From assembly GCA_938034705.1 (NCBI GenBank), contig CALHMG010000137.1, positions 1-43,561 on the forward strand: 43,561 nucleotides of DNA. The letters run 5' to 3'. This DNA comes from an uncultured Gammaproteobacteria bacterium (GTDB taxonomy: Bacteria > Pseudomonadota > Gammaproteobacteria > Arenicellales > CALHMG01). Of this stretch, positions 33,648 to 43,304 are shown in pieces. Position numbers and translations under genes: made by a program. The notes under the pieces were generated by a model. That model was given only the letters and a program-made list of their open reading frames with translations. It was not told the origin of the DNA and searched no databases. Position 1 is the stretch's first letter. Every line of letters starts with the position of its first letter.

Positions 33648-33682
33648 ATCCACCTCGCATCCTTTTGAACACCCGAACACCG

Positions 33683-35038
33683 ATGACGGCGCCGAACAAG
33701 CAATCTGAGTCCATCCATCTTCATCTGGATACGGTAGGCGGCATTGCGGGCGACATGTTTGTCGCAGCGCTGCTTGACGCCCGTCCCGAACTTGAAACGG
33801 AGATGCTGGCTGCGTTGACCACGGCCGATCTGGACACGCTTGTCACCGTCAATCGCGAGGATTTTGACGATGGAACACTGACGGGGTCACGGATCACCGT
33901 CGCACCCGTGGGAGCGGCTGCGACCGGACCTGAGCACGGCCACGGCGCGGCTGAGCACGTCCATCACCACGATCATCACCATGGCGTTCACGAACATACG
34001 CACGACCATGGACATGGACATGGACACGACCATGGACACGAACATGATCACGGACATTCGCACGCGCACACCCACCGGGCGTGGCGTGACATACGCGCAA
34101 TGCTCCAGCAGGCAAAGCTGCCAACCGGCGCGAAATCCGCAGCGATTGAAATATTCTCCGAGCTCGCGAAAGCCGAGGCGCGCGTGCACGGCAAGTCGGT
34201 CGATGATGTCGCCTTTCACGAAGTTGGCGCCTGGGACTCGATTGCCGACATTGTGATGGCTGGATGGTTGATCGATCGAATGGGCATCACGAGCACGTCC
34301 TCTTCGGCACTCCCGATGGGCCGTGGTCTCGTGCCGACGGCTCACGGCCGATTGCCTGTGCCGACACCGGCTACGGCGCTGTTACTCGAAGGAATGCCGC
34401 TTGTTGATGACGGACTGGAGGGTGAACGTGTCACGCCGACGGGTGCCGCCATTCTCAAGTTTCTTCAACCGACGTTCAGCGGCTCCAACTCCCCGCGTGT
34501 GCTTCAGGGAACGGGAGCAGGGTTTGGCACCAAGCGTTTTCCCGGTATCAGCAATATGCTGCGCGCCAGTCTCTATGACAGCCACTCAGCGCCAGGTTTC
34601 AGTAACGAGCAGATTGCGTTGATCGAGTTCGAAATCGACGATCAGACCCCGGAAGATCTGGGAGTAGGACTTGAGGCGTTGCGAAACTCCAGCGATGTTC
34701 TTGACGTTGTGCAGAGTACGGTGACCGGCAAAAAGAATCGTTTGATGATTCGGGTTCAGGTCATGACGCGGATCAGTGCGGTCAACAGCGTGCTTGAAAG
34801 ATGTTTTACCCAAACAACAACTCTGGGCGCGCGATGGCAGATAATCAATCGCGCCGTACTGGATCGCACCCCCGGCGAAAAGACCGTCGGAAACAACACG
34901 ATCCGGATCAAGACCGCAAGACGACCGGACGGCTCTACAACAACAAAGGCCGAAATCGACGACCTGGCGGACGGCGACAGCGATAACGACAGCCATCGAC
35001 ACCGCCAGGCACTTAGACGTGATGCCGAGGACCAATAG
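33683..35038 (+). CDS. larC: Nickel pincer cofactor biosynthesis protein LarC (nickel insertase)
   Basis: 451 aa from the ATG at 33683; a TTG at 33665 is in frame but has no better site. LarC inserts nickel into the dithiolated pyridinium mononucleotide using CTP. The N-terminus HLHLDTVGGIAGDMFVAALLD and the block KAEARVHGKSVDDVAFHEVGAWDSIADI are family signatures; the C-terminal half includes FEIDDQTPEDLGV. Between them, about residues 83-133, is a long His/Asp/Gly-rich insert likely to bind or store Ni2+. In Lactiplantibacillus the gene is split by a programmed frameshift; here both halves are one continuous frame. larE starts three bases after its stop. Confidence 0.95.
   Translation: MTAPNKQSESIHLHLDTVGGIAGDMFVAALLDARPELETEMLAALTTADLDTLVTVNREDFDDGTLTGSRITVAPVGAAATGPEHGHGAAEHVHHHDHHHGVHEHTHDHGHGHGHDHGHEHDHGHSHAHTHRAWRDIRAMLQQAKLPTGAKSAAIEIFSELAKAEARVHGKSVDDVAFHEVGAWDSIADIVMAGWLIDRMGITSTSSSALPMGRGLVPTAHGRLPVPTPATALLLEGMPLVDDGLEGERVTPTGAAILKFLQPTFSGSNSPRVLQGTGAGFGTKRFPGISNMLRASLYDSHSAPGFSNEQIALIEFEIDDQTPEDLGVGLEALRNSSDVLDVVQSTVTGKKNRLMIRVQVMTRISAVNSVLERCFTQTTTLGARWQIINRAVLDRTPGEKTVGNNTIRIKTARRPDGSTTTKAEIDDLADGDSDNDSHRHRQALRRDAEDQ
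33930..34080 (+). repeat. His-rich coding repeat within larC
   Basis: Imperfect six-base repeats of the GGACAT / GGACAC type encode alternating Gly-His and Asp-His runs (HDHGHEHDHGHSHAHTH near the end). A metal-binding tract is the obvious reading. Repeat number is likely to vary between strains. Confidence 0.7.
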
Positions 35039-35041
35039 AAC

Positions 35042-35848
35042 GTGACCGCAGAAAAACTAATCGCCGACCTTGAGGCCGCGATCGACGCGATCGGGCCGAT
35101 CGCGGTTGCCGTGAGTGGCGGCGTGGACAGCATGACTCTCGCGGTCGTCGCCGGTCGAATGACAGACCGGTCCGTGCAGATGTTTCATGCCGTGTCTCCG
35201 GCCGTGCCCGAAGAATCAACCGATCGGGTACGGGCCTACGCAAAGACCGAGAACTGGGATCTGCAGGTCTTGAACGCCGGTGAATTTGACGACGAAAACT
35301 ACATGGCTAATCCAGCCAATCGATGCTTTTTCTGCAAAACCAATCTCTACGGTGCAATGGTCTCCCATACCCGGGCCACTTTAGTATCAGGTACAAACAC
35401 GGACGACCTTGGCGACTATCGACCCGGTCTGAAAGCCGCCGACGATCATGGGGTTAAGCACCCGTACGTTGACGCCGGGATCAGCAAGGCCGGGGTACGG
35501 TTAATCGCGAGAAAGCTTGAACTCGACGATGTCGCCGAACTTCCGGCCGCGCCCTGTCTGTCCAGTCGCGTTGAAACGGGAATCAGCATCGACCCCGCCC
35601 AGCTTTTGAGCATCAACGCCGTGGAAAAAATGCTCCGAAACGAACTGACCGCAAAGACCGTACGCTGCAGAGTTCGAGAGGCCGGCATCGTCATAGAGCT
35701 CGATGAAGACTGTCTTGATGGTCTCGCCGATGCAGAACGCGAGTCTTTGCGCAGGTCCGTTGCCAGTCACTTCATCAAAAGCCGTCCAGACGCTTCGGTG
35801 TCGTTCGAGGCCTATCGAATGGGCAGCGCATTTTTGACCACCATCTGA
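35042..35848 (+). CDS. larE: LarE sulfur transferase of nickel pincer cofactor synthesis, three-cysteine type
   Basis: 268 aa from a GTG at 35042. LarE adenylates the LarB product and converts its two carboxylates to thiocarboxylates. The PP-loop SGGVDS is at residues 25-30. Three cysteines are placed as Cys95 and Cys98 in NRCFFCKTN and Cys172 in PAAPCLSSR. The sacrificial Lactiplantibacillus enzyme uses a single cysteine (Cys176). From memory, LarE proteins with three such cysteines bind a [4Fe-4S] cluster and can act catalytically, so this one is probably the cluster type. It is tightly placed between larC (3 bases) and larB (11 bases). Confidence 0.94.
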   Translation: MTAEKLIADLEAAIDAIGPIAVAVSGGVDSMTLAVVAGRMTDRSVQMFHAVSPAVPEESTDRVRAYAKTENWDLQVLNAGEFDDENYMANPANRCFFCKTNLYGAMVSHTRATLVSGTNTDDLGDYRPGLKAADDHGVKHPYVDAGISKAGVRLIARKLELDDVAELPAAPCLSSRVETGISIDPAQLLSINAVEKMLRNELTAKTVRCRVREAGIVIELDEDCLDGLADAERESLRRSVASHFIKSRPDASVSFEAYRMGSAFLTTI

Positions 35849-35859
35849 AGACCAAATCC

Positions 35860-36531
35860 ATGAAAGACCGAGACCACACGCCTGATGATGCTCGCGCATC
35901 AAGAATAGGTATCGACGAAGCAATACTCTGTGACAGCAAACGCTCAGAGCATATCGACAGCATTCTCAACGATGCGGCAGCAAAACAGATGTCTTTGCTC
36001 CTGACACGAATTTCAACCGAGAAAGTCGAAGCTCTGCCAGCAAGACACAGGGAACGCCTCGACCATGATCCGGTCTCCAACACCGCCTGGTTCGGTCAAC
36101 CAACCCGCGATCTGCCAGAAACCGCTGATGTGGCGATCGTAACCGCCGGCACGTCGGACGTCCCTGTTGCGCGCGAAGCGGTTCGTACCCTTGAATTCAA
36201 CGGTGTCCGAAGCCACGAGGTCTATGACGTTGGCGTAGCCGGGGTCTGGCGATTGATGGATCGCGTCGATGAACTGAAGCAGTTTTCGGTGGTTATCGCA
36301 GTCGCCGGAATGGATGCTGCTTTGCCGAGTGTTCTTGGCGGTCTGGTTCCGGGTTTGATCATCGCGGTACCGACGTCCGTAGGATACGGGGTCGCCACAG
36401 GTGGCAATGCCGCACTGAACGCGATTCTGGCAAGCTGTGCGCCCGGAATCTGCGTCATGAATATAGATAACGGATATGGAGCGGCCTGTGCGGCCCTGCG
36501 CGCTATCAACAGTTTTAGCGAAAGTGCTTAA
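35860..36531 (+). CDS. larB: LarB, pyridinium-3,5-biscarboxylic acid mononucleotide synthase
   Basis: 223 aa. LarB carboxylates the pyridinium ring of nicotinic acid adenine dinucleotide and releases AMP, the first step of the nickel pincer cofactor. The C-terminal PurE-like domain is clear: VAIVTAGTSDVPVAREA, VYDVGVAGVWRLM, VIAVAGMDAALPSVLGGLV, PTSVGYGVATGGNAALNA and the SCAPGICVMNIDNGYGA block, whose Cys193 matches the cysteine that binds the substrate covalently in the characterised enzyme. It is the third gene of larC-larE-larB; a GC-rich hairpin follows. Confidence 0.95.
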   Translation: MKDRDHTPDDARASRIGIDEAILCDSKRSEHIDSILNDAAAKQMSLLLTRISTEKVEALPARHRERLDHDPVSNTAWFGQPTRDLPETADVAIVTAGTSDVPVAREAVRTLEFNGVRSHEVYDVGVAGVWRLMDRVDELKQFSVVIAVAGMDAALPSVLGGLVPGLIIAVPTSVGYGVATGGNAALNAILASCAPGICVMNIDNGYGAACAALRAINSFSESA

Positions 36532-36561
36532 AGACTGAAGCGGCACATTTTTCTGGAAGCT

Positions 36562-36592
36562 GGCCTGACCCGAAGGGTGATGCGGGTCGGCC
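36562..36592 (+). terminator. GC-rich hairpin after larB
   Basis: GGCC-GACCCG and CGGGTC-GGCC pair across a ten-base loop, with one bulged T, 31 bases after the larB stop. No T-run follows, so it is either a Rho-dependent or 3'-protecting structure rather than a classical terminator. Confidence 0.45.
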
Positions 36593-36787
36593 GAAGGTGA
36601 GCAACACTTTCAACATAGACGCCTGAATCAGATATCCAACACGCCGTTGCAGGAATAACTGTCTTCAGGAAATCTCCCCGCTAACAATCAGACACGTCAC
36701 CCGGAACTTCCGATAGTGGCTCGATTTTTCATAGGACTAAATCGGCCTTATTGAACTCGATAGTATTCACATGAAAAAACCGGGGCA

Positions 36788-36816
36788 TTGCACCTGACAA
36801 TTCATGTCGATGTAAT
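36788..36816 (+). promoter_or_regulatory. Candidate sigma-70 promoter for the VWA gene
   Basis: TTGCAC (36788-36793) is followed after exactly 17 bases by TGTAAT (36811-36816, five of six consensus bases). A start near 36823 would give a 307-base leader. Confidence 0.5.
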
Positions 36817-36929
36817 GAACTCACGAAAAACATGAGATCAACTTCATAGTTCACCCAAACCCTCCTACGTAGTATTCGTTGTGGGTGTACGAACAAGCAC
36901 TCGAAGTCTCCGGGGGGTGACTTGCAGAG

Positions 36930-37078
36930 CCAGACCCAAACGTCTGGATCTCACAAGAGACAAAGAGCGTCGCAACAACGCTCTTAACAACGGTTCTCAC
37001 GAACCTCGTTGTAACCCCTGGTCGCGATCGAGCACTTGCTTCGTGTTTAGTCTGACGCGGATCAACCCGTATCAGACT
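36930..37078 (+). promoter_or_regulatory. Four tandem hairpins in the VWA leader
   Basis: Hairpin 1: CCAGAC/GTCTGG, 36930-36947. Hairpin 2: AAGAGCG/CGCTCTT, 36963-36985. Hairpin 3: ACAACGGTTC with GAACC-TC-GTTGT, 36987-37012, ten pairs with a two-base bulge. Hairpin 4: AGTCTGA/TCAGACT, 37049-37078, with a CGG/CCG inner stem. The core CAGAC or its complement GTCTG occurs six times between 36931 and 37102, so alternative pairings are possible. No known riboswitch is recognised. Confidence 0.55.
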
Positions 37079-37092
37079 GTCTGGAAAGCAAC

Positions 37093-37117
37093 GCCATCAG
37101 ACGATGGCAACTTTTTT
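37093..37117 (+). terminator. Terminator-like hairpin just before the VWA start (possible attenuator)
   Basis: GCCATC and GATGGC pair around an AGAC tetraloop (37093-37108); AAC follows, then six T (37112-37117). The ribosome site GGGGTGA begins immediately after, and the ATG is at 37130. Its position inside the leader suggests conditional termination. The three-base offset of the T-run makes it weaker than the 39030 terminator. Confidence 0.5.
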
Positions 37118-37129
37118 GGGGTGACAACA

Positions 37130-38983
37130 ATGTACGGTTTCAAATTCAAACTTCGTAGCGCTCTCACGGTTCTCGCAACCGGCGGTGTGCTGCTCTCGAC
37201 TCCTGCGAACGCGCAGAAAGTTGACAACAATCCGGATCTGCCGGTTCAGTGTGGCCTGGACATCGTCCTGGTGCTGGACGCTTCAGGTTCAATCAAATAC
37301 ACGAACGATCCTTCAGTCGCTGACGACAAAAACGGTTCTATCGACCGTGTCGCCGGCGCCGCTAACGCGTTTCTGAACGCGTTTTCAAACACTAACAGCC
37401 GCGTCGCGGTTGTCAGCTACTCGCACGACAGCGTTGAGCAGACAAACTATGCCGACGTGAACCCCGGCACTATCGCAGCTGGCGGCATTCATAATGTCGC
37501 AATCGGCGACGCGGGCGGCCTGGCTGGTCCAGTTCCAGCAGGCACGACCGGCTACGCCGAACACGCGGGCAAAGGGGGCTCCACTAACTGGGAGGCCGCC
37601 ATGATGTCGACTCGCGACATGCTGTCAGGCGCTACAGGAAACAGTCCTCGCCACAACGTTCCGCGACTTGTGGTTCACATTACTGACGGACAGCCAACCA
37701 GTTATATCGATCCAACGACGAATTCGCCAACAACCGGCAACTCATCGATGGCTCTCAGCAACGCCGCTGGCGTCGCCAAGCAGATCATGACCGATCAGAA
37801 TGCTCATATTTACACTGTTGGAGTTGGCGGCGCAGCTAGCCACGTCAGCAAGCTGGAGCAGATCTCGGGCCCTGACGTTTACAACCAGGCCGACGTAAAT
37901 CAGACGTTTGACGCATCGACTACCGACGTGATTCTGGCAACTGACTTTGTAGAACTCGAGAAGCTGCTCGCCGGTTTCGCAACCGAGCTTTGCGCACCTT
38001 CACTGACCATCACGAACCTGGTTTCTGAAGCCGATACGCCTGACACCTATGAAGTGGATGCGGGTTGGAATTTCACCGCGAAGCCTATGGCATCGGACAA
38101 CACATACGAGTGGGTACTGCCTAACGCAACTGCAGCAGCCAACAAGACATCAACAACCGACGACAATGGTCGAGTTCAGTTTCAGTGGCAGCTTGAAGAT
38201 GCCATCAACTGGGCACCAGGCATGATCAATGTCAAGCAGACACAGCAGACCGGTTACGACAACATGGTCAACGTTGAGTGTTTTCGAACCAACCGTTCGG
38301 TTACAAACCAGCCCTTCACAGCCAACTACGAAAGCACCACCGGCTCTATCGACGTCAACGTTGAAGCCGACGACATCGTAACCTGTGAAGTGATGAATAA
38401 TTCCAATCGTCGAGATGGCGCAGACGGTTCACCAACGAGACGTGGCGTATGGTGGAGAAAGCATCCTGAAGCTGTAGCTCAGTGTCTTGCAGAGAGTAAT
38501 GGCATGATCGACGTCGGAATCTTCGAAGTTCGCGATGAAGCCTACGACGACGAAATTGACGCATACAAGATCCACGACGGCAGCACCAAGGGTGATCGCG
38601 ATAACGTAGCCGATCGAGGAATTGATCTTGCACTGGGTGTACTTAACACCGACACGGTAACTCACCGCAGCGGCTTTATTTATCCTACAGTCAAGACTGA
38701 GTGCATGCGTGCAACTCGCCAGCTGATGGTTGCTCACTGCAACACGGTATGGATGGGAACCCCGGGACCGATTGATTTTGACAAGAGTCGTGAAATCGTC
38801 GTCCAGAACTGCAAGACGCGCGGCACAGAGGCACAGCTTGCAGAACGCGAAGCTAACCTGAGAGCACTTCGCGCTGAGCTGATCCGTTACTCATCTTCCG
38901 GTCACCATATTGACCTGCAGCGAGATGGCGGAGTAGAAGACGCAAACGCTTACTACGACGATCCTCGCGATCCACGTGACTAA
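37130..38983 (+). CDS. Secreted von Willebrand factor A domain protein
   Basis: 617 aa from the ATG at 37130, chosen because it has a GGGGTGA site six bases away and starts the signal peptide (LRSALTVLATGGVLLSTPANA). The VWA domain (about 40-290) has a complete MIDAS: DASGS at 50-54, the Thr in GKGGSTNWEAAM, and the Asp in HITDGQP. A beta-rich segment follows (about 295-430), then a C-terminal module starting GVWWRKHPEAVAQCL that resembles the G-x-W-x-x-HP repeat modules of secreted proteins. The C-terminus is acidic. Cysteines suggest disulfides. Codon use looks less GC-biased than in the flanking lar genes, and the gene separates larCEB from larA. It may be a metal-dependent adhesin or surface factor; function unknown. 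Confidence 0.8.
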   Translation: MYGFKFKLRSALTVLATGGVLLSTPANAQKVDNNPDLPVQCGLDIVLVLDASGSIKYTNDPSVADDKNGSIDRVAGAANAFLNAFSNTNSRVAVVSYSHDSVEQTNYADVNPGTIAAGGIHNVAIGDAGGLAGPVPAGTTGYAEHAGKGGSTNWEAAMMSTRDMLSGATGNSPRHNVPRLVVHITDGQPTSYIDPTTNSPTTGNSSMALSNAAGVAKQIMTDQNAHIYTVGVGGAASHVSKLEQISGPDVYNQADVNQTFDASTTDVILATDFVELEKLLAGFATELCAPSLTITNLVSEADTPDTYEVDAGWNFTAKPMASDNTYEWVLPNATAAANKTSTTDDNGRVQFQWQLEDAINWAPGMINVKQTQQTGYDNMVNVECFRTNRSVTNQPFTANYESTTGSIDVNVEADDIVTCEVMNNSNRRDGADGSPTRRGVWWRKHPEAVAQCLAESNGMIDVGIFEVRDEAYDDEIDAYKIHDGSTKGDRDNVADRGIDLALGVLNTDTVTHRSGFIYPTVKTECMRATRQLMVAHCNTVWMGTPGPIDFDKSREIVVQNCKTRGTEAQLAEREANLRALRAELIRYSSSGHHIDLQRDGGVEDANAYYDDPRDPRD

Positions 38984-39029: not shown

Positions 39030-39057
39030 AAGCCCTGACGCAAGTCAGGGCTTTTTT
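39030..39057 (+). terminator. Strong intrinsic terminator after the VWA gene
   Basis: AAGCCCTGAC and GTCAGGGCTT form a perfect ten-pair stem with a GCAA loop, followed directly by a T-run ending at 39057. It ends the VWA transcript; on the minus strand it is preceded by the aldo/keto reductase stop and could act weakly for that gene too. Confidence 0.95.
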
Positions 39058-40076: not shown

Positions 40077-41381
40077 ATGCACATTCGCCTCAACTACGGT
40101 CACGACGGGCTCAACGTCAAAATGCCGGCACAAGCCCAGGTCGAGATCATCAGAAAACCTGAAATGCCCATTTTGGAGGATCCCCGACGTGCGGTCGAGG
40201 ATGCACTGGACAAAGGCCCGGGTCCGAATCTTGCGGCTGTCGCGGCGGGCGGCAAAAGTGCGTGCATTGCCGTCTGTGACATCACCCGACCCGTTCCCAA
40301 CGGACTCTTTCTGCGACCGATGATCGAACGACTCATGGCGGGTGGCATCGAGCTTAAAAACATAACCGTAATCGTCGCGACCGGGCTGCACCGCCCGAAT
40401 GAAGGCGCCGAGTTGGCAGAGCTGATCGACGATGACTGGGTGCTGGAGAATGTCACCGTCGTAAATCATTTCGCGCGGGACGACGACGCGCATAAATTGC
40501 TGGGACAGACACGCAGCCGCGGTACCGTCGTGCGTCTTGACCGCAGACTGGTAGATGCCGACATCAAAATTGCCACAGGTCTCGTCGAACCCCACTTCAT
40601 GGCCGGTTATTCAGGCGGCCGCAAGGTCTTTGCGCCAGGTCTCGCCCACGCCGAAACCATCACAACGTTTCACAGCGCCAGGTTCATGGCCGATCCGGCA
40701 GCGTCAAACTGCAACTTCGACCAAAACCCGCTGCATGAAGAACAACTGGAAATCATGAACCTGCTGGGCGACGCGTGGGCGCTGAATACCGTAATCGACG
40801 AAGACAGGAAGCTGTCGTTTGTCAATTTTGGGGAGATTCTTCAAAGTCACAGCGAAGCCGTCGAATACGTCCGCGAGTATTGCGAAGTCCGTACGCAGCG
40901 GCGTTATCCGACTGTCGTCACAAGCGCCGCAGGCTATCCACTGGACAAAACCTACTACCAGACCGTCAAGGGAATGGTGGGAGCCATGGAAATTCTGGAA
41001 CCCGGAGGAAACCTGATCATCGCATCAGAGATATCGGAGGGTATGGGTTCAGAGGAATTTGTCGAAGCGCAACGCCGGCTCGTCGAGCTCGGACCAGAAC
41101 GCTTTCTTGAAGACATACTCAAAAAATCCCACGCAGACATCGACGAGTGGCAGACCCAGATGCAGCTGCGCCCAATGGCAATCGGCAACATCCACCTCTT
41201 CACTCGCGAACTGTCCGCTTCGGATCAACGCCTGACCGGCGTCAACTGCGTCGATTCGGTCGAAGCCGCAATAGACCAAAGCATCCGCCAAACGGGAGAC
41301 ACCAACGTCGCCGTCATTCCCGAGGGGCCTTACCTGGTACCGTTTTGTGGAAACCGGGACAGTCAGACTGCCGCTGCGTGA
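40077..41381 (+). CDS. larA: LarA-family nickel-pincer racemase/epimerase
   Basis: 434 aa. LarA carries the covalently bound nickel pincer nucleotide and interconverts alpha-hydroxyacid stereoisomers by hydride transfer. The key residues of the characterised lactate racemase (His108, His174, Lys184, His200) have counterparts here at His105 in TGLHRPNEG, His173 in VEPHFMAGYSGG, Lys183 in GGRKVFAPGLA and His199 in TTFHSARFM, with near-constant spacing. Other LarA homologues act on malate, phenyllactate or sugar acids, so lactate is not assured. It is on the same strand as larC-larE-larB but 3.5 kb away, divergent from an aldo/keto reductase. A hairpin follows the stop. Confidence 0.93.
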   Translation: MHIRLNYGHDGLNVKMPAQAQVEIIRKPEMPILEDPRRAVEDALDKGPGPNLAAVAAGGKSACIAVCDITRPVPNGLFLRPMIERLMAGGIELKNITVIVATGLHRPNEGAELAELIDDDWVLENVTVVNHFARDDDAHKLLGQTRSRGTVVRLDRRLVDADIKIATGLVEPHFMAGYSGGRKVFAPGLAHAETITTFHSARFMADPAASNCNFDQNPLHEEQLEIMNLLGDAWALNTVIDEDRKLSFVNFGEILQSHSEAVEYVREYCEVRTQRRYPTVVTSAAGYPLDKTYYQTVKGMVGAMEILEPGGNLIIASEISEGMGSEEFVEAQRRLVELGPERFLEDILKKSHADIDEWQTQMQLRPMAIGNIHLFTRELSASDQRLTGVNCVDSVEAAIDQSIRQTGDTNVAVIPEGPYLVPFCGNRDSQTAAA

Positions 41382-42506: not shown

Positions 42507-43304
42507 TCACGCCTGCATTCCTCGCGCAAATTTTTCGGCAAAGCTGACCGCGGGAATCTGATCGACCGGCATGTTCATCTGCAGGGCCAGCTGTGAACCA
42601 CCTGCGTCAACGGCGAACGGCGCCACGTCTTTGACAACACCAGCGACAACATCAACCGTAGCGCTTCGTCTGGAAACGTCATGAGAAGCTGCACAGGAAT
42701 CCGAACGAAGATTCGATTTTTGAATGCGCGATGGTCGGGAAGACCGGGCAGGCAAATCCGTCCGCACATCTGCCACGGTGATCTTGCCCGCACCGCCGCC
42801 AGGTCGTTGCTCTGACACCGTCGCTGGAGCGTCCAGAAATTCGCGCAGCCAGGGACCCAGTTCAACCTCGGTTCGCGCCAGTTTGAGCGCGGTTCGAAAA
42901 TCTGTCTTGCGGCCTGCGCGTGCGCGCCGTCGCCGCGGCGCAGGCGCACGACCCAGATCCGCCCGGTGCCCGGATTGAGGCACCGTTTTGACCCGCTGGA
43001 CCGTCTTCAGATGATCGAAGTCCGCGGTAGTAGACGGGGCATCCGGGCCACCCGCGGGACTGAACACAGCCCTGGCGCTGACGCCACGAGGTCGACCGGC
43101 GGACGCCGTCGCGGCGGTGGATGAGGTCGCCCGAACACCTGAAATACCGGTGTTTTGGCGCATTTTCCCGCTGCCGCGAGTCAAAACCCGCGGGGCCTGG
43201 GGAGCTTGTTTTGGGATACTGTACATCCAACCAGTATTCCACCGGAATCCGCGCAATGCAACCCCCGGGGTATCTGACCGCCATTTCACTGAAATCCGAG
43301 TCAT
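42507..43304 (-). CDS. Doubtful basic, low-complexity protein
   Basis: 265 aa if the ATG at 43304 is used, but the gene is uncertain. The middle is Arg/Ala/Pro-rich (APAPRRRRARAGRK). The C-terminal half (VDVVAGVVKDVAPFAVDAGGSQLALQMNMP) looks more protein-like. A second minus-strand frame (42862-43308, from a GTG) has a more natural-looking N-terminus, MAVRYPGGCIARIPVEYWLDVQ, and the two could represent one gene broken by a frameshift or a sequence error. No domain recognised, no good ribosome site. It is divergent from the EamA-type gene. Confidence 0.4.
   Translation of the reverse strand: MTRISVKWRSDTPGVALRGFRWNTGWMYSIPKQAPQAPRVLTRGSGKMRQNTGISGVRATSSTAATASAGRPRGVSARAVFSPAGGPDAPSTTADFDHLKTVQRVKTVPQSGHRADLGRAPAPRRRRARAGRKTDFRTALKLARTEVELGPWLREFLDAPATVSEQRPGGGAGKITVADVRTDLPARSSRPSRIQKSNLRSDSCAASHDVSRRSATVDVVAGVVKDVAPFAVDAGGSQLALQMNMPVDQIPAVSFAEKFARGMQA

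Follow-up and report, generated by a model that had tools for sequence, protein, structure and literature searches.

A strongly folded orphan 5' leader, candidate for cis-regulation, precedes a putatively secreted VWA protein gene in an uncultured gammaproteobacterium

The window, i.e., the whole stretch of 43,561 nt analysed on contig CALHMG010000137.1 of an uncultured Gammaproteobacteria bacterium (Arenicellales, CALHMG01; assembly GCA_938034705.1), carried a VWA gene preceded by a long leader and followed by its own intrinsic terminator. Lactate-racemase-type genes were located at window positions 33665-36531 and 40077-41381. The LarC-like gene carried a His-rich insert, the LarB-like gene corresponded to AIRC, and the gene in the LarE position displayed a sub-threshold Asn_synthase match only, while the LarA-like gene was found past the VWA gene and an opposite-strand aldo/keto reductase-like ORF. 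The VWA gene, its terminator and the members of its protein family were distributed as follows.

37130-38983, + strand: VWA gene, 617 aa, signal-peptide-like N-terminus, C-terminus DDPRDPRD (Pfam VWA, 1.3e-11)
39032-39051, + strand: genuine intrinsic terminator of the VWA gene (GCCCTGACGCAAGTCAGGGC TTTTTT), score +36.7
Family members in the same genome: window 37130-38983; L018 8422-11454; L019 4679-7789; L020 1026-3482; L021 4169-1554 (- strand); L064 5723-6142

The clear Pfam VWA match and the signal-peptide-like start are consistent with the secreted, metal-ion-adhesion-type product proposed by the initial annotation, and the MIDAS residues D50, S52, S54, T152 and D186 were invariant in the alignment of the paralogues. 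Members of the family shared a C-terminal domain of about 185 aa with DDPTDPxD at the extreme C-terminus, a fixed tail that might signal sorting or secretion. Four of them harbored an N-terminal VWA domain, one had DUF11-type repeats instead, and the sixth was a short ORF (139 aa). Orthologues of the VWA gene were not found in plasmids, viral contigs, a collection of 84,980 species or sampled class genomes (where class genomes gave matches, these were confined to the alignment's repeat region), and none of 144 relatives encoded the shared C-terminal domain. As far as searched, the protein family thus appeared private to this genome, itself the sole representative of its bacterial family among the genomes searched.

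Upstream of the VWA start codon, the same frame stayed open for 83 codons (from 36881), through the leader. An N-terminal coding extension was rejected on its codon score, which at -0.16 per codon equalled that of every other frame (genes, +0.19). The paralogues begin at their signal peptides.

The hairpins in 36823-37129 were real and well above chance. The minimum free energy of this RNA was -116.5 kcal/mol, against -83.8 ± 5.3 kcal/mol in dinucleotide shuffles (z = -6.2, 100 shuffles); with 300 shuffles the full leader reached z = -6.4 and no shuffle was equally stable. Stability was still pronounced for 36851-37124 alone (z = -6.8) and for the main domain 36888-37045 by itself (z = -6.1), and the 290 nt preceding the leader were unstructured (z -1.6). 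The leader ranked first in structure among 145 stretches sampled from the window, and only 4 of 4006 segments of 150 nt, drawn from 306 kb of this genome, scored lower. Three of these four fell in two gene-end stretches with one simple hairpin each (L065 5101-5176; L062 18526), and the remaining one was at L065 11776. Ensemble diversity was 20.4, whereas shuffles averaged 70 ± 20 and none of 200 came down to the leader's value; pair probabilities were mainly 0.9-1.0. This indicates a single well-defined fold rather than a set of near-equal alternatives. A second strongly structured stretch (z about -5.1) was present at window positions 43051-43200, close to the contig end.

The predicted fold, over a stretch of 280 bases, comprised the following elements.

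36851-36856, + strand: 5' strand of P1, UCACCC (anti-Shine-Dalgarno), pairing with 37119-37124 at probabilities of 0.61-0.96
36883-36887, + strand: alternative local partner of the P1 5' strand, +5.4 kcal/mol
36859-36886, + strand: P2, ACCC 36859-36862 with GGGU 36883-36886, inner ACG/CGU (predicted fold)
36888-37045, + strand: main domain P3, an interrupted 24-bp stem, then a four-way junction with three hairpins
36917-36961, + strand: junction arm a, tip CCAGAC/GUCUGG (36930-36947, 6 bp)
36963-36985, + strand: junction arm b, perfect 8-bp hairpin, loop of 7 nt
36987-37012, + strand: junction arm c, 5+5 bp, 2-nt bulge
37048-37079, + strand: P4, hairpin UAGUCUGA..UCAGACUG, inner GCGG/CCGU, 8+4 bp, small internal loop
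37083-37116, + strand: P5, GGAAAG/CUUUUU around the hairpin GCCAUC-AGAC-GAUGGC (37093-37108, 6 bp)
37118-37124, + strand: Shine-Dalgarno GGGGUGA, predicted to pair with 36851-36856

The outer stem of P3 showed pair probabilities of 0.95-1.00, and the GGGU of P2 was also used by the alternative CACCC/GGGUG helix. Inverted repeats were indeed present at each of the five hairpins reported earlier (36930, 36963, 36987, 37049, 37093). The CAGAC/GTCTG core likewise occurred six times (36931, 36942, 37050, 37073, 37079 and 37098), four of the copies being the two arms each of two hairpins; dinucleotide shuffles contained it 0.97 times on average, and 0 of 200 reached six.

This excess over the 0.97 copies expected would also suit an element acting at the DNA level, in which the CAGAC dyads (CCAGAC-N6-GTCTGG, AGTCTGA-N16-TCAGACT and CAGAC-T-GTCTG) would serve a dimeric transcription factor as operators, or another palindromic DNA element. 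The opposite strand was nearly as structured, with z values on the + and - strands of -6.4 and -4.9 for the leader, -6.8 and -5.7 for 36851-37124, -6.1 and -5.5 for the main domain, and -4.6 on both strands for the 3' part. The small strand difference of the main domain keeps a DNA-level role a live rival. The strand comparison nevertheless mildly favours an RNA role, the + strand being modestly better; in addition, the motif was absent from the arms at 36963 and 36987 and from the outer main stem, no promoter was found near the dyads, and a second genomic copy was not found, which argues against a dispersed repeat. A DNA element is considered quite unlikely. Among other identities, a mobile repeat was rejected with no second copy in its own genome, a tRNA- or tmRNA-like element with no ARAGORN match in the window, and an integron attC site by eye, as its core sites do not fit the leader.

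The initial annotation had proposed an attenuator or riboswitch ending in a terminator at 37093-37117. A GC-rich 6-bp stem with six T within three bases, just ahead of the ribosome site, does give the leader that appearance, and transcription attenuators likewise have a hairpin and T run ahead of the start codon. The 37093 hairpin, however, scored -50.6 on a d'Aubenton-Carafa-type scale, i.e., as a non-terminator, against +36.7 for the terminator of the VWA gene and +51.2 for the L065 5181 terminator of the same genome; this verdict is one of sequence score only. Its stem was weak (-8.2 kcal/mol), and AAC intervened before the T run, which was itself predicted to pair with GGAAAG (probability about 0.64). 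The mutually exclusive pairings suggested for GTCTG 37079 were uncompetitive as antiterminators, at +6.1 kcal/mol relative to the ensemble with CAGAC 37098 and +10.7 kcal/mol with CAGAC 36931. A leader-peptide attenuator was not indicated: a single separate + strand ORF of at least 20 codons started in the leader (36922, TTG, within the main domain), and by eye no short ORF with a preceding Shine-Dalgarno was seen there. Transcription attenuation, by a riboswitch or otherwise, thus appears very improbable, whereas the long structured leader, the lack of a known class and the secreted VWA gene of the initial annotation held. The locus carries a caution, in that a hairpin and T run with the look of an attenuator before a start codon failed against terminator scores from the same genome. 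Elsewhere in this genome, a long perfect hairpin with a 13-bp stem (CTTCCTGCGCGTC) and a short T run was located near a gene end (L062 18593-18622).

The promoter pair assigned upstream of the leader (TTGCAC-N17-TGTAAT) was sub-threshold, its -35 box matching at 3 of 6 positions, and a sigma-70-like promoter scan of 36450-37250 returned no site.

Searches for relatives agreed with the earlier statement that the leader belongs to no recognised class. No Rfam family reached its gathering score anywhere in the window; relaxing the cut-off to E 10 over 36500-37300 brought up only two chance matches below threshold, both on the opposite strand. DNA similarity searches in the own genome, relatives, phages and plasmids yielded chance matches only. 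When 284 relatives and 378 phylum genomes (two samples with some genomes in common) were searched with a covariance model (R1, 161 nt) describing the main domain, nothing but noise at E 0.3-5 was returned; because this model rests on one sequence and strict filters were applied, distant relatives could have escaped it. Many weak matches to a model of the 3' part (R2) were rejected as chance because the best of them aligned mostly over single stems. Leaders of the paralogues did not match R1, were not similar in sequence and had ordinary structure (z -0.4 to -1.8, four leaders). Covariation, the customary evidence for a structured RNA class, requires homologues, and these searches found none.

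A survey of intergenic regions reported many structured-looking regions with no homology even in close species, which may be rare RNA classes, of which such surveys predict many, or functionless junk (PMC8632094). The ilvD and potE motifs, rare orphan intergenic RNAs from GC-IGR surveys (PMC8632094), resemble the present leader in being structured, located before one gene, narrowly distributed and backed by little or no covariation; they have several representatives, compared to one here. The lack of a relative among the genomes and databases searched and the possible junk status of homologue-less structured regions (PMC8632094) would both fit a chance or relic structure, e.g., a decayed inverted-repeat insertion with no function today. 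Yet z values near -6 and a very low ensemble diversity are hard to obtain by chance, and the leader was made of several independent nested helices, rather than one repeat, with little decay in its hairpins, so that such an origin is judged decidedly unlikely.

The region is a real, strongly folded orphan leader and a cis-regulatory candidate. The z values, the low diversity, the unstructured 290 nt upstream and the better + strand all speak for a leader, as do the gene's own terminator and an in-frame upstream extension that is not coding-like. Against it stand a ribosome-site occlusion at chance level, the lack of a recognisable promoter, searches that found no homologue, paralogue leaders devoid of such structure, and a - strand on which the main domain was nearly as stable (z -5.5). 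The explanation we hold best, tentatively and at somewhat less than an even chance, is that about 36830-37129 would form an orphan structured 5' leader limiting translation initiation of the VWA gene.

In this model, the main domain (36888-37045), P4 and P5 would fold and bring UCACCC (36851-36856) beside the Shine-Dalgarno. UCACCC would then sequester GGGGUGA (37118-37124), P1 being the last helix formed. Release could occur by re-pairing of CACCC with GGGUG (36883-36887). This change, costing about 5 kcal/mol, would leave the main domain untouched, and its driver could be a ligand, a protein or even the ribosome. We infer transcription from upstream of 36851, a Shine-Dalgarno occlusion that would matter in the cell, and switching.

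Computation gave the stability, the single dominant fold, the energies of both states and the finding that no good terminator is present. P1 paired the Shine-Dalgarno with a probability of about 0.9, and in the full-length leader the Shine-Dalgarno-free CACCC/GGGUG form lay at +5.4 kcal/mol, while constrained pairing of UCACCC with 36916-36921 was at +11.4 kcal/mol. When the chain was folded as it grew, the Shine-Dalgarno-free CACCC/GGGUG form appeared first, and the Shine-Dalgarno-paired form once the Shine-Dalgarno had emerged. Opening the Shine-Dalgarno cost 8.2 kcal/mol; as 59 of 300 shuffled leaders reached the same cost, occlusion of the ribosome site was not above chance. Translational control is weakened by this chance-level occlusion and by the fact that no trigger is known. 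The 16S rRNA, which would give the exact anti-Shine-Dalgarno, was not found in the genome bin.

A structured 5' leader might also act with no switch, stabilising the mRNA or imposing a fixed, low initiation rate on a secreted protein. Stable 5' structures shield mRNAs from decay, and the leader displayed one dominant fold, not two close ones, with an occlusion of the ribosome site no stronger than chance. Its multi-junction architecture, though, exceeds the needs of protection, and paralogues of the same family manage with no such structure. A non-switching leader is regarded as unlikely. A separate trans-acting small RNA, with the leader being or being processed into it, would agree with the compact and stable fold, but is extremely improbable given a 3' end that lacks a good terminator, a final helix made with the ribosome site, and no Rfam match.

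The leader proposed to limit translation initiation shares with translational riboswitches and other Shine-Dalgarno-sequestering leaders an upstream structured domain and a predicted helix covering the Shine-Dalgarno, whose covering strand has a second possible partner. It differs from translational riboswitches in having no Rfam aptamer and no conserved relatives found, in an alternative state 5.4 kcal/mol away and in its chance-level occlusion. That it would be the first example of a new class of cis-regulatory RNA, with a four-way-junction domain sensing a signal and controlling translation of the secreted VWA protein, appears rather improbable. On strong folding evidence, the leader now stands as a candidate. 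If real, it would be a regulatory RNA of large size that comparative discovery, relying as it does on relatives, would miss.
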